From IMG/VR virus record IMGVR_UViG_3300035145_002322, positions 1 to 48,280 of that record: a DNA stretch of 48,280 bases. The stretch is one strand, 5' to 3'. A model generated the notes under the pieces. That model saw nothing but the letters and a program-made list of their open reading frames with translations, searched no databases and had not been told where the DNA came from. The stretch's first letter is position 1. Each line of letters begins with the position of its first letter. Source of the stretch: a virus. Positions 3,031 to 48,280 of the stretch are shown here, one piece after another. Both the position numbers and the translations under genes were made by a program.

Positions 3031-3249
3031 TCAGAATCCGAAAACACCAAAGAAAAATACACTACCAGTAGTAGCATAGCTGACAATAGCAGCAACAAAT
3101 CCAAGCATAGCAGTGCGTCCATTCAATTTCTCTGCACGTTCTGCATATGTCTCATAACCATAACGCTCAGCGTCAGACTTGGAGACGTACATTTGTGGTT
3201 CTTTGGCAAACAAATTTTGTTGCCCTAATTCGTTTGTCGTTACAGTCAT
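3031..3249 (-). CDS. hli: High light-inducible protein (72 aa)
   Basis: A polar N-terminus of about 35 residues is followed by AERAEKLNGRTAMLGFVAA, the canonical Hli helix with ExxNGRxAMxGF, and the tail SVFFFGVFGF. It would insert in the thylakoid membrane, bind chlorophyll/carotenoid and dissipate excess energy. It is the first gene after the pstS terminator and has its own promoter at 3276-3304. Confidence 0.95.
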   Translation of the reverse strand: MTVTTNELGQQNLFAKEPQMYVSKSDAERYGYETYAERAEKLNGRTAMLGFVAAIVSYATTGSVFFFGVFGF

Positions 3250-3275: not shown

Positions 3276-3304
3276 AGTATATAGTAAAAAAGCACCCCTG
3301 TCAA
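3276..3304 (-). promoter_or_regulatory. Sigma70-type promoter embedded in the pstS terminator
   Basis: TTGACA (3299-3304), a 17-nt spacer and TATACT (3276-3281), reading toward hli. The TTGACA is exactly the six-base loop of the pstS terminator hairpin, and the U-tract lies in the spacer. The start site would fall about 20 nt before the hli ATG. Confidence 0.7.
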
Positions 3305-3311
3305 GGGGTGC
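3286..3311 (-). terminator. Rho-independent terminator of pstS
   Basis: Perfect 7-bp stem GCACCCC/GGGGTGC (3292-3298 with 3305-3311), a 6-nt loop and six T on the minus strand. Confidence 0.9.
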
Positions 3312-3333
3312 TGTGTAGTGATTTATACTTATA

Positions 3334-4329
3334 TCACTTAATAGTTTCGACTGCAGCAAGAGATTTCTGTCGAAGAGACTCTGGAAGAGGTACATATCCC
3401 AAAGAATCTGAAACCGCTTGCGACTTTTCACTCAACATATAACGAAGAGTTTCCTTTACTCCAGTTTTGGATTCAGGATAAGCAAGGATCCAAGTCAGGG
3501 ACACAATGGGATAAGCATTGGCACCTGCAGGGTTAGGATCTGCCCCACGAAGTTTATCGTCTAGAACGATCTTGGCAAGTCCTGCAGCAGAAGTTTCACT
3601 GTTTGCTTTCACAAAGTTACCCGCACGATTCTGAAGAGCAACCTGTTGGAACTTACCACCGTTCACATAACCATAGTTCAGATAACCGATAGCACCTTGA
3701 GTGTTCTTGATAACACCAGCAACACCAGAGTTACCTTTACCACCAACACCAACAGGCCACTGAACTGCTTTACCAGTTCCTACAGTCTTCTTCCACTCAG
3801 GAGAGAAAGCAGACAGGGAGTTAGTGAAACCTTTGGTAGTACCACTACCATCAGAACGATGAACAGTGACGATCTGCTTATCAGCACAACCGAAGGTGCT
3901 CCAGTTTGTAATCTTACCAAGGAAGACATCAGCAAGTTGAGTCTGTGTCATCTTGGCATCACAACCAGGATAGTTGTAAGCAGGGACAATAGCACCACCA
4001 GTCATGGGAATGTGAACCATCGGCAGTTTCTGCTTAGCATCCGACACAGCACCATCAGAGGCACCGAAGTCAACAGTCTTAGCAGTAAACTGACGGACAC
4101 CAGCACCACTACCAACTGCTTGATAGTTCACTTGGTTTCCAGTATCTTTATTGAAAGATTGGAACCAGGAGTTATACAAAGGAGCAGGGAATGTCGCACC
4201 TGCCCCGTTGAGTTTGAAGACAGCAGGGGCGTCTGCCTTCTTGTCCCCACCCCACCAGAAAGCTTGTGCAACTGTGGGAATACTGATAGCAGCAGTTAAA
4301 CCTGCCGCAAGGAGAAGTGAACGTTTCAT
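3334..4329 (-). CDS. pstS: Phosphate-binding protein PstS of the ABC phosphate transporter
   Basis: A 331-residue protein with a signal peptide ending near AQA (21-23). Family motifs appear in order: GAGATFPAPLYNSW (about 43-56), GSGAGVRQF (about 73-81), DFGASDGA, HRSDGSGTTKGF (mid-protein) and GAIGYLNYGY. It captures periplasmic phosphate and passes it to the host PstCAB transporter. Cyanophage copies are known to be induced through the host PhoR/PhoB system when the host is phosphate-starved. It lies 11 bp below a small secreted protein gene and shares its promoter, which carries a candidate Pho box. Confidence 0.97.
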   Translation of the reverse strand: MKRSLLLAAGLTAAISIPTVAQAFWWGGDKKADAPAVFKLNGAGATFPAPLYNSWFQSFNKDTGNQVNYQAVGSGAGVRQFTAKTVDFGASDGAVSDAKQKLPMVHIPMTGGAIVPAYNYPGCDAKMTQTQLADVFLGKITNWSTFGCADKQIVTVHRSDGSGTTKGFTNSLSAFSPEWKKTVGTGKAVQWPVGVGGKGNSGVAGVIKNTQGAIGYLNYGYVNGGKFQQVALQNRAGNFVKANSETSAAGLAKIVLDDKLRGADPNPAGANAYPIVSLTWILAYPESKTGVKETLRYMLSEKSQAVSDSLGYVPLPESLRQKSLAAVETIK

Positions 4330-17403: not shown

Positions 17404-17939
17404 TAAAACTTTTCCTTCAAATCAAGTTCGTAAATTTTATCGATAACTTCATCATATGGGACAAAGGGAATAAGTCCTTTCAGTTCAAGTGTATCAAAGA
17501 GATGCATGATAACATTGTTACCGCCTTCTGCAGATAAAATATTTGATTTTTCTCTTACCACTCTGGGGGCATTTCTTGGACAATATGAATACTTGATCCT
17601 CTCCATAATACCAATATCAAAAAGATCATCACCAACGTAAGCAGTTTCTTTCACACTACAATTATACTGCTCAAGTATTTCATCAAGATAATTTTTTTTA
17701 TCACTGTGGAAACCAGATCCACGATTTGCAATCACATGAAGATTTCTATTTTCTAAGATACTTACATTGTAAGGATCGCCTGTAAGAAATACAATATCTA
17801 CACCGATGGCACGAAATCTTTTGATTGCTGTCCAATCCTTATCACAAAAAGTTTTAAGTTTTACTGTTCCTTCTCTATCATAGTATTTGACCCCATCGGT
17901 CATAACACCATCTACATCAAGAATTACTAATTTGATCAT
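17403..17939 (-). CDS. KdsC/YrbI-like HAD sugar phosphatase
   Basis: From the ATG at 17939 the product has 178 residues and begins MIKLVILDVDGVMTDGVKYY, the DxDGxxTDG active site of KdsC-type HAD phosphatases. VFLTGD follows (motif II Thr), and AYVGDDLFDIGIME is the acidic motif. KdsC removes phosphate from 8-phospho-KDO or 9-phospho-sialate; in this operon the substrate is more likely a sugar phosphate from the neighbouring kinase. Longer in-frame starts run through the epimerase gene and are rejected. It overlaps the epimerase gene by 23 bp. Confidence 0.88.
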   Translation of the reverse strand: MIKLVILDVDGVMTDGVKYYDREGTVKLKTFCDKDWTAIKRFRAIGVDIVFLTGDPYNVSILENRNLHVIANRGSGFHSDKKNYLDEILEQYNCSVKETAYVGDDLFDIGIMERIKYSYCPRNAPRVVREKSNILSAEGGNNVIMHLFDTLELKGLIPFVPYDEVIDKIYELDLKEKF

Positions 17940-18963
17940 TAATCCAATTGTAAGTTTTGCTGATACCCTCTTCAAGGGTTGTGGAATAATCCCATCCAAG
18001 TTCTTCGCGAATAAGATCATTGTTAGAGTTGCGACCACGAACTCCAGTCGGACCATCAATGTTTATTTTATGAACAGTCTTACCAGATACTTTAGCAACA
18101 GTGTCAACTAATTCATTGATTGTAACCATTTCTTCGGAACCAATATTAACAGGACCAGTAAAGTCACTATCCATCAACCGTCGAGTCGCTTCAATGCATT
18201 CATCAATGAACAAGAAGGAACGAGTCTGTAAGCCATCTCCCCACACCTCGATTGCTCCACCCTGCTGCGGGAGGTAAGCGACCTTACGGCAGATTGCAGC
18301 TGGCGCTTTCTCTCTTCCTCCCTCCCAGGTTCCTTCTGGACCAAAGATGTTGTGATACCTAGCAATACGAACAGGAATACCATAATTACGGTTGTAAGCC
18401 AAGTAAAGTCTTTCGCTAAAGAGTTTTTCCCATCCATATTCGGAGTCTGGGTTTGCTGGGTATGCTGATTCTTCACGGCAGTCTGGATTATCAGGATCAA
18501 GTTGGTTGTGTTGTGGATACATGCAAGCAGATCCGGAATAAAAGATCTTAGTCTTATTAACTTCTTTTGCAATATTCATCTGACGTTGACACTCAAGAAC
18601 ATTCAGATTAATTTGAACAGAGTTGTGCATAATGTCTGCATCATTCTCTCCAGTAAACACGAAACCTGCACCGCCCATATCAGCAGCAAACTGATAGATC
18701 TCATCGAAAGTATCAATATACCGTTCAGGAACGTCATGATAAAAGTTCTCACGCACACCTTTGAATTTAATGGCACGACGAACAAAGTCAATGTCCCGAA
18801 GATCACCGACGACAAACTCATTTGCCTCTGACTTAGAAAACTCCGTGTGCTTCAAATCAACACCACGAACCCAGTACCCTTCAGAACGAAGACGTTTTAC
18901 CATATGGCTTCCAATGAAACCACCTGCACCCAATACAAGTGCAGTTTTTTTATACTCACTCAT
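17917..18963 (-). CDS. GDP-mannose 3,5-epimerase (GDP-L-galactose forming)
   Basis: A 348-residue extended SDR with VLGAGGFIGSHMVKRL, YQFAADMGGAGFV, SGSACMYPQHNQL containing the catalytic Cys, the catalytic YGWEK, GTWEGGREKAPAAICRK, WGDGLQTRSFLFIDEC and GVRGRNSNNDLI. These match plant GDP-mannose 3,5-epimerase motif by motif (AADMGG, SSACIYP, GREKAPAA, GDGLQTRSF, GVRGRNS). The enzyme turns GDP-D-mannose into GDP-L-galactose (or L-gulose). It is the first gene of the glycan operon; the mannose-6-phosphate isomerase cupin at 24.7 kb could feed the GDP-mannose pool. Confidence 0.92.
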   Translation of the reverse strand: MSEYKKTALVLGAGGFIGSHMVKRLRSEGYWVRGVDLKHTEFSKSEANEFVVGDLRDIDFVRRAIKFKGVRENFYHDVPERYIDTFDEIYQFAADMGGAGFVFTGENDADIMHNSVQINLNVLECQRQMNIAKEVNKTKIFYSGSACMYPQHNQLDPDNPDCREESAYPANPDSEYGWEKLFSERLYLAYNRNYGIPVRIARYHNIFGPEGTWEGGREKAPAAICRKVAYLPQQGGAIEVWGDGLQTRSFLFIDECIEATRRLMDSDFTGPVNIGSEEMVTINELVDTVAKVSGKTVHKINIDGPTGVRGRNSNNDLIREELGWDYSTTLEEGISKTYNWINDQISNS

Positions 18964-18987: not shown

Positions 18988-19016
18988 ATTATACAAAAAA
19001 AGGACGGTTTATGCAA
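18988..19016 (-). promoter_or_regulatory. Candidate promoter of the glycan operon, overlapping a terminator
   Basis: A perfect TATAAT (18988-18993) lies 17 nt from TTGCAT (19011-19016). The -35 lies in the stem and loop of the terminator at 18994-19023, and the spacer holds its U-tract. The start site would be about 20 nt above the epimerase ATG. The -35 is weak (3 of 6). Confidence 0.5.
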
Positions 19017-19023
19017 CCGTCCT
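18994..19023 (-). terminator. Rho-independent terminator before the glycan operon
   Basis: Perfect 9-bp stem AGGACGGTT/AACCGTCCT (19001-19009 with 19015-19023), 5-nt loop and six or seven T on the minus strand. Confidence 0.9.
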
Positions 19024-19041
19024 TAAAGGTCTTTCATGCAC

Positions 19042-31982: not shown

Positions 31983-32013
31983 AAAAAGGAGACCTTATCT
32001 TTTAGGTCTCCTT
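31983..32013 (-). terminator. Rho-independent terminator ending the long replication transcript
   Basis: A 10-bp perfect stem AAGGAGACCT/AGGTCTCCTT (31986-31995 with 32004-32013) and a T-run on the minus strand, which runs straight into the late promoter. Confidence 0.92.
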
Positions 32014-45867: not shown

Positions 45868-45896
45868 ATTTTAGCAATAAAAAAGAGGGGCGTCAA
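45868..45896 (-). promoter_or_regulatory. Sigma70-type promoter inside the hsp20 terminator, driving the replication block
   Basis: TTGACG (45891-45896), 17 nt, TAAAAT (45868-45873). The -35 box lies in the terminator stem-loop (45879-45919) and the U-tract in the spacer. The start site is about 15 nt above the 117-aa gene. Confidence 0.55.
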
Positions 45897-45919
45897 CTGG
45901 ATTTGACCAGTTACCCCTC
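45879..45919 (-). terminator. Rho-independent terminator of hsp20
   Basis: A long hairpin with outer stem GAGGGG/CCCCTC (45885-45890 with 45914-45919), inner stem AACTGG/CCAGTT and six T on the minus strand. Confidence 0.88.
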
Positions 45920-45947
45920 CGTCTGCGACGACGATATTCAGTTCTAT

Positions 45948-46504: not shown

Positions 46505-47554
46505 TCAGATCTTAATATCAGCAGGGAAAGTTGGTAGGTCTTTTCTTTCTGCTTTTGTTAGCATTTTGGTGGGATCAAGAATACCATTCTGATGCAAATA
46601 ATCTTTGGTAATAGTCATCGTGGGTGCATTTTCTTCTGCCCAAAAGTTATACTCATTCACAATGTTATGCACAATCTTGAATTGTGTGTTGCCACCAGCA
46701 GAGTTGTGATAGTACTTTCTCATAGATGTTTTACCCATTTCAGAATTCATCCAGGATAACATCTGCTTTTTCTTACCATTTAATCCATTTGAAGTTCCAC
46801 CTTCAACTTTTCCTGCTTTATCAAGAAACACAAAAAGTGTAGTGAGACCATGAATCATATCATCACGAATATCAAGGAGAGGATTGTCATCAGATCCCCA
46901 AGTATCACGCATAAAATCTACTGCTCTTGGGATGTAACTAGAGAAATCATCACCGTATTGCTCAATGGTTTTGATAATACGAGCACCAGATCCACTGATG
47001 ACATTACCATCAACAGCACCAATTCCATCGACATTGAGATTACAAAGTTTTAAAATGTTCTCAAACAGAATTGCATATGATTCTTCCAGAAAGATATCAT
47101 TGCGAATGATATCCAACTTAGAGGGATTTTTACGTTGGGTATTCAGTGCTTTGTAGAGACGTGCCTCTGCCTCTTGAACTTCTTCAAGTGTCGCATCTTC
47201 GCTGTGGTGCAGTTCAAGAGTATCAAGATCCTCATCACATTCACCGAGAATATCCATCATCCCAGTGTGTTGTCCATCCACAACAACAATAGCACCACCA
47301 AGATGCTCCGGTCGAACAGATACCACAACTACTGTGGCAAGTTCTGGATCGTACTGCTCATATTTGATAATGGCGTTTCCACTAATCGTCCTATTCCACT
47401 TTCTTGCGGTCTGGAGTTCGGATGATTTGCGGGTGCCTTTTTTAAGTTTTTTCTTGTGCTTTTTAAGTCCCTTCTTGAATTTTCTTTTCGCGTTTTCAAG
47501 CGCGGGATCATTCGCTACATCTTTAAGATAGCGAAGTTCATCCATGTTAGACAT
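46505..47554 (-). CDS. ParB/DGQHR-like protein, 349 aa
   Basis: A 349-residue protein. Highly basic N-terminal stretch (RKFKKGLKKHKKKLKKGTRK), then GGAIVVVDGQHTGMMDILGE and EAEARLYKALNTQRKNPSKL. The VVDGQHxG segment followed by the Asn-x-Gln-Arg element recalls the ParB-like/DGQHR nuclease superfamily (cf. DndB, sulfiredoxin fold). The C-terminal half is helical with no known domain. It stands alone between terminators and has strong promoters upstream. A nuclease or nucleotide-binding role is possible. Confidence 0.6.
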   Translation of the reverse strand: MSNMDELRYLKDVANDPALENAKRKFKKGLKKHKKKLKKGTRKSSELQTARKWNRTISGNAIIKYEQYDPELATVVVVSVRPEHLGGAIVVVDGQHTGMMDILGECDEDLDTLELHHSEDATLEEVQEAEARLYKALNTQRKNPSKLDIIRNDIFLEESYAILFENILKLCNLNVDGIGAVDGNVISGSGARIIKTIEQYGDDFSSYIPRAVDFMRDTWGSDDNPLLDIRDDMIHGLTTLFVFLDKAGKVEGGTSNGLNGKKKQMLSWMNSEMGKTSMRKYYHNSAGGNTQFKIVHNIVNEYNFWAEENAPTMTITKDYLHQNGILDPTKMLTKAERKDLPTFPADIKI

Positions 47555-47632
47555 GTATTACCTCTCGGTTAGATTTTGCTTTGGTTGTTCTTACTTTTCA
47601 GTAGAACCGAACGCCTTTCGTTGTTCGTACAC

Positions 47633-47663
47633 TATTTATAACAGTTTTCAAAAAAATTGTCAA
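47633..47663 (-). promoter_or_regulatory. Composite sigma70/late promoter of the ParB-like gene
   Basis: TTGACA (47658-47663), 17 nt, TATAAA (47635-47640). The -10 also belongs to an exact TATAAATA (47633-47640) on the same strand, so both early and late RNA polymerase forms could use the site. It is about 79 bp above the gene. Confidence 0.7.
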
Positions 47664-47693
47664 CTACTATAGTTCGGGTCTCCGAACAAGAAT

Positions 47694-47721
47694 ATTATGA
47701 CATAAAAAAAGCACCCGTCAA
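47694..47721 (-). promoter_or_regulatory. Sigma70-type promoter embedded in a terminator
   Basis: TTGACG (47716-47721), 16 nt, CATAAT (47694-47699). The -35 is the loop plus one stem base of the terminator at 47704-47728. It is the second promoter of the ParB-like gene. Confidence 0.5.
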
Positions 47722-47728
47722 GGGTGCT
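47704..47728 (-). terminator. Rho-independent terminator of the 113-aa gene
   Basis: Stem GCACCC/GGGTGC (47711-47716 with 47722-47727), a 5-nt loop and seven T on the minus strand. Confidence 0.9.
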
Positions 47729-47796
47729 TGTATTAAAGATAAGTCAGATTGGGTTCTTGAAACCAAATACAATATTGGTAAGAAGGGTAAATTACA

Positions 47797-48138
47797 TCAA
47801 AAACCAGGATCCCAATAGTAACCTTTACTAACAACACTTCGTTTTAATCCAGGAAAATGATAGGCAGCAATGTCCATACCTTTTCCATACTTACGATTAA
47901 TATTCTGTAAAGCAATGCGTCCACACTTACAGAAATCTTCTCGTTGGTCTGGGTGCATATCTGCCCACCTTTCCGTTTTAACGCATGAAGCATATAAAGA
48001 TTCCTCTCTATTATGATCCCAGGTTGGTCTTACAATTTCTCCTTTTAGAAAATTTTCTACACTATCTATATCAAATTTATAATTCTTGAATTTCTTTTTC
48101 CTAGGGTTAGGTTTAGGAAAAAATTCTGTATCTAACAT
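47797..48138 (-). CDS. Hypothetical protein, 113 aa
   Basis: Basic N-terminus (FPKPNPRKKKFKNYKFDIDS), a mid segment with SLYASCVKTERWADMHPDQR, then EDFCKCGRIALQNINRKYGK and a Tyr/Trp-rich end. Three cysteines could bind a metal. A GGAGG ribosome-binding site lies 6 nt before the ATG. It has its own promoter and terminator. No family recognised. Confidence 0.6.
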   Translation of the reverse strand: MLDTEFFPKPNPRKKKFKNYKFDIDSVENFLKGEIVRPTWDHNREESLYASCVKTERWADMHPDQREDFCKCGRIALQNINRKYGKGMDIAAYHFPGLKRSVVSKGYYWDPGF

Positions 48139-48186: not shown

Positions 48187-48214
48187 ATTATAGCATAAAA
48201 AAGCACCCCGTCAA
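48187..48214 (-). promoter_or_regulatory. Sigma70-type promoter embedded in a terminator
   Basis: TTGACG (48209-48214), 16 nt, a perfect TATAAT (48187-48192). The -35 is the loop of the hairpin at 48196-48222 and the U-tract lies in the spacer. It drives the 113-aa gene. Confidence 0.65.
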
Positions 48215-48222
48215 GGGGTGCT
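48196..48222 (-). terminator. Rho-independent terminator at the right edge
   Basis: Perfect 7-bp stem GCACCCC/GGGGTGC (48203-48209 with 48215-48221), loop TTGAC and six T on the minus strand. It ends an upstream gene outside the window; its stem sequence is the same as that of the pstS terminator. Confidence 0.92.
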
Positions 48223-48280
48223 TGTAAGTTCCGACTTTTGAAGCGACCGCACGAAAGATCGCAGATTTATTTATTCGGTT

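Follow-up and report, generated by a model that had tools for sequence, protein, structure and literature searches.

The closest described systems are the promoter-early stem-loops (PeSLs), which were reportedly described in coliphages RB49 and phi1 by Arbiol et al. in 2010. The PeSLs of vibriophages KVP40 and nt-1 are credited to Comeau et al. 2014 in later papers that cite that work. Passages of two papers present PeSLs as composite promoter-terminator motifs of T4-like phages and say that they drive gene shuffling (PMC4503421, PMC5931544). For cyanophages, a study of S-PM2 reported that PeSL-like signals are scarce in that phage and questioned whether they play a role in it. The cyanomyoviruses S-PM2 and Syn9 have sigma-70-like early promoters of the same -35/-10 type as the elements described below (PMC2984593), and they lack MotA/AsiA. 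The literature that we searched held no mention of terminator-promoter overlap in cyanophages and no cyanophage transcription start-site map.

The genomes of RB49 and KVP40 show two different ways of combining the signals. RB49 has the two in succession, hairpin first: the TTGAC of a strong promoter begins 16-34 nt after the hairpin at 12 of 41 predicted terminators, and none is embedded. KVP40 has 11 near-identical cassettes, laid out as GGG-TTGCTTCGGCAGCCCTTTTTGCG-TATTAT, with the -35 box in the hairpin and the -10 box 17-18 nt away, just past the U-tract; most of the 11 also share ATCGAAACGA or a close variant downstream. Because these cassettes exist and PeSLs are published, a composite element is neither confined to cyanophages nor new in principle.

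The DNA analyzed here, which we call the window, is the 48,280 nt of IMG/VR record IMGVR_UViG_3300035145_002322. Its gene content is that of a T4-like cyanophage, including a B-family DNA polymerase (gp43), ribonucleotide reductase, pstS, hli and hsp20, and it is most closely related to myoviruses of Synechococcus, Bellamy among them. At five intergenic sites on the minus strand, each between co-directional genes, a hairpin leads into a U-tract with a -10 box beyond it, and a -35-like hexamer within the hairpin lies 16-17 nt from that box. All five sequences had been picked out by an earlier sequence-only reading and are present where it placed them. Its count of five promoters among nine terminators is about right, with the correction that the transcribed strand has approximately ten terminator-like hairpins. 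The RNA folds of the five range from -13.1 to -21.7 kcal/mol (z -4.9 to -6.2), and no shuffled sequence equalled any of them. The hexamer spans the apex of the hairpin in four of the five, the exception being the element at 45.9 kb, and TGn precedes the -10 box in the copies at 47.7, 48.2 and 45.9 kb.

The element at 3.3 kb is predicted to end pstS (3334-4329, minus strand) and to start hli (high light inducible protein, 3031-3249, minus strand). The hairpin AGCACCCC-UUGACA-GGGGUGCU (3291-3312) stands after pstS and leads into a U-tract; TTGACA (3299-3304) is at its apex, and the -10 box TATACT (3276-3281) lies 17 nt below the -35 box. The hexamer had been described as an exact six-base loop, and it does sit at the apex, but in the fold a U-A pair closes a UGAC tetraloop. 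The element at 18988-19024 precedes a nucleotide-sugar epimerase gene (17917-18963), with a hairpin at 19000-19024, the apex TTGCAT at 19011-19016 and, 17 nt on, TATAAT at 18988-18993. After hsp20, the element at 45868-45920 heads an operon that runs to the DNA polymerase gene gp43. Its TTGACG (45891-45896) is 17 nt from TAAAAT (45868-45873), as had been claimed, but the -35 hexamer lies outside the loop: the hairpin (45884-45920) is a longer one in two parts, and the hexamer occupies part of its descending arm together with a 3-nt bulge. The remaining two have five-base loops, UUGAC. At 47694-47729, before the ORF at 46505-47554, the hairpin (47709-47729) holds TTGACG (47716-47721), 16 nt from the extended -10 TGTCATAAT with its box CATAAT at 47694-47699; in one orthologue the loop is TTGACA. 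At 48187-48223, before the ORF at 47797-48138, the hairpin (48201-48223) holds TTGACG (48209-48214), 16 nt from the extended -10 TGCTATAAT with its box TATAAT at 48187-48192. All of these lie on the minus strand. A scan of 45.0-48.3 kb against Rfam gave no family at gathering score.

We consider it very probable that these elements are intrinsic terminators and host-type sigma-70 promoters built from the same bases. As in an intrinsic terminator, a G+C-rich hairpin is followed directly by a U-tract and the stem is kept by compensatory change; as in a sigma-70 promoter, the -35 and -10 hexamers are 16-18 nt apart and are conserved jointly.

To ask how far this exceeds chance we searched 340 cyanophage sequences, 4.3 Mb in all, which gave 515 predicted terminators, and sorted these by the families of the genes on either side. 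Exact TTGACA lies in or at the loop of 33 terminators, which represent 18 independent gene junctions and place this hexamer first of 180 anagrams: the best of the 179 others reaches 8 junctions (TGCATA, which is the TTGCATA series) and the next reaches 4. When the loop matches at five or more of the six bases, a -10 box (at least 5/6) stands at 17 nt in 40 cases and at 16 nt in 9, with few, scattered cases at other distances. The proposed excess of TTGAC loops with a -10 box 16-17 nt away is thus borne out in the collected terminators.

The loops could instead be RNA sequences that are preferred for stability or for protein binding, with the -10 matches arising by chance. The DNA of cyanophages is rich in A+T, and many terminators do have a -10-like hexamer beyond the U-tract, but with other loops it is seldom correctly spaced: a -10 box at the right distance follows 28 of 33 exact TTGACA loops and 32 of 327 loops that match at three positions or fewer. 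Swapping the downstream tails among terminators also destroys the pairing, leaving 5.0 ± 2.1 (maximum 13) loop -35/-10 pairs against 26.1 observed. Together with relatives that keep the hli promoter and have no hairpin (see below), these results led us to reject an RNA-loop explanation, which we regard as extremely improbable. Bacterial hairpins with the identical loop point the same way, since they mostly have no -10 box. For the one exact stem that was searched, the same stem-loop string is accompanied by a -10 box (at least 5/6) in 29 of 33 viral matches and in 1 of 10 bacterial matches. Those 10 are all the matches in genome contigs, and the string occurs in 2 of 292 cyanobacterial genomes, one of which (G002) was picked because it has a match; a host origin of this string was rejected on these grounds.

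Two further counts agree with the fused reading. Ten cyanophage genomes that are complete or nearly so contain 15 strong promoters with the -35 box inside a terminator hairpin, against approximately 0.6 expected by position. Under a strict rule these genomes have 0-4 embedded promoters each (none in the complete genomes of Syn9 and Syn19), so the window is unusually rich; the low copy numbers agree with the few PeSL-like signals of the S-PM2 study. A scan of IMG/VR with the stem-independent pattern TTGACA..TTTTTT..TATAAT gave 121 matches, and a hairpin encloses the -35 box in 44 of them, compared with 7.1 ± 2.2 with swapped upstream sequences. Because the matches include contigs with psbA, with a T4-like clamp loader and, in one case, with an endolysin and a DnaB-like helicase, the embedded form probably spans more than one phage group. 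A correlation of arm length with the -35 and -10 boxes arises by construction and was left out of the evidence.

Three series of orthologous junctions show how the two signals have been kept; being phylogenetically related sequences, they weigh less than their counts. Between pstS and hli, five of the nine stem pairs show compensatory changes, a number reached in 0 of 500 shuffles, and the relatives retain TTGACA, the U-tract and TATA(A/C/T)TATGTAAAG before hli while the stem varies. The gene after pstS varies among phages, yet the promoter tracks hli. In three relatives (L341, L346 and L348) the hli promoter comes directly after a plain terminator, in tandem and not embedded; in two (L378 and L365) it stands without any terminator; and in another (L354), where a small gene separates pstS from hli, the promoter remains beside hli. 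Where pstS is followed by a gene other than hli, the loop mostly lacks a -35 box, the -10 box is absent and the terminator is mostly plain. In ten sequences a small gene (MKKK...) downstream of pstS seems to begin with an ATG that sits immediately on the U-tract of the terminator. A usual promoter or ribosome site would have no space there, and expression by readthrough or by hairpin-controlled translation is possible.

At the epimerase junction, a -10 box (at least 5/6) lies exactly 17 nt from a TTG or TTT apex hexamer in all 22 terminators, with the -35 variants TTGCAT, TTGACA, TTGTCA, TTTACA and TTGCTT and with compensating stems. The TTGCAT site had been ranked as a weaker form; this strong conservation shows that it is real. 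Between hsp20 and the DNA polymerase operon the same hairpin apex occurs in 77 distinct sequences, the great majority of which have TTGAC or a near match together with a -10 box; in S-SM2, regA and hsp20 come first, then the element, two small genes and gp43. That apex, CTGG-C(A/C)AAA(T/A)-CCAG (in the window within 45884-45920, minus strand), is nearly invariant in the 77 sequences, whose outer stems differ by compensating changes. It also occurs without any -35 box on terminators near hli genes in Syn9 (approximately 164.16 kb) and S-PM2 (approximately 125.0 kb), and for this reason it may be a binding site between RNA and protein.

From the compensatory stems and the three series, which agree in this, we conclude that the terminator and promoter sequences are under joint selection. 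The suggestion of a selected building block is supported in the same way, and the loop enrichment, the 17-nt spacing and the tail swap likewise favour a single element of approximately 40 bp that would end one gene and start the next.

The companion suggestion, that the block is mobile, fared differently. Cassettes that copy themselves among genome sites have been proposed for the PeSLs of RB49/phi1 and KVP40/nt-1, and a similar origin could be read from the stem AGCACCC(C) common to three copies in the window, from the 11 near-identical cassettes of KVP40 and from the variable gene after pstS. However, 60 composites have 46 different 5' arms, the copies within S-SM2, P-SSM4 and a third genome (G001) are unlike one another, and at fixed junctions the stems drift by compensatory change. 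The look-alikes at 3.3 and 48.2 kb do share a core, as had been pointed out, but their flanks are unrelated. Given this stem diversity and the absence of flank repeats, we rejected mobile cassettes for the cyanophages and consider them very unlikely.

The same observations place the elements relative to PeSLs. Like the PeSLs of RB49 and phi1, they unite the stem-loop of an intrinsic terminator with a sigma-70-type promoter within a single short stretch between genes, but with the -35 box inside the hairpin. In this, and in having the -10 box immediately after the U-tract, they resemble the cassettes of KVP40. There, however, the -35 box starts in the ascending arm and the flanks are shared, whereas in the cyanophages it is usually apical, the stems mostly differ and the flanks are unrelated. 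The many near-identical copies per genome that characterize PeSLs are not found, since stems differ within cyanophage genomes. Judged by their sequences, the cyanophage elements therefore appear to work like PeSLs but are not strict members of that class. Composite stop/start signals are already published; the apical-loop -35 box with mostly differing stems is a new form. Composite signals and mobility, which are joined in the PeSL literature, come apart here.

The fused reading leads to a simple picture of how such a site would act. In the nascent RNA, pairing of the arms together with the U-tract would terminate transcription of the upstream gene. In duplex DNA the apical loop, or the adjoining arm, would serve as the -35 box, with the -10 box beginning just past the U-tract, and RNA polymerase would begin the next gene approximately 7 nt beyond it. 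From the hairpin, the U-tract, the two boxes, their spacing and their joint conservation we infer that transcription stops and starts here, at which base it starts and that it does so early. A stem of 7-8 bp and a U-tract of 6-7 nt would fill the 17-bp spacer, so that a compact terminator already has the right length and the overlap would be easy to evolve in a crowded genome. In marine picocyanobacteria -35 boxes are reportedly weakly conserved, and host use of TTGACA is for this reason an assumption.

The embedded promoter might in addition allow RNA polymerase, after terminating, to move a few bases along the DNA and initiate again, so that the output of neighbouring genes would be coupled. 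RNA polymerase is able to remain on the DNA after termination and, by diffusing, to reinitiate at promoters close by, among them a sense promoter that lies downstream (PMC6978380), and the -10 box is here within a few bases of the U-tract. Such restarting would add to the main explanation, but we think it rather unlikely: genome compaction accounts equally well for the spacing, the behaviour of the cyanobacterial polymerase is assumed by analogy, and RB49 has its tandem promoters 16-34 nt past the hairpin. We are equally doubtful, while noting the idea, that the apical -35 box is a general solution that arose repeatedly in several phage lineages, with stem and U-tract geometry tuned to the 17-bp spacer and the terminating polymerase handed straight to the next promoter.

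For fused signals as such, one stretch of approximately 40 bp would carry two messages that are both selected, a stop signal in the RNA and a start signal in the DNA. This yields predicted promoters and transcript boundaries for hli, the DNA polymerase operon and the epimerase gene, whose transcription control is poorly understood. Such sites will be overlooked or wrongly positioned when promoters and terminators are predicted by independent programs, and they could also supply very compact natural parts for gene circuits.

Other overlaps were seen as well. At approximately 31986-32012 in the window (minus strand), the U-tract of a terminator runs into TATAAATA, a T4-type late promoter, and T4 itself has similar cases; such stop/late-start fusions may form a parallel class. 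Between the 47.7-kb element and the ORF at 46505-47554, a second promoter-like stretch, TTGACA-17-TATAAATA (47630-47665, minus strand), reads as sigma-70 and late type alike. In one cyanophage contig (L212), the ORF directly after an embedded promoter encodes 511 aa and resembles, by eye only, an NdhD-type subunit of NADH dehydrogenase.
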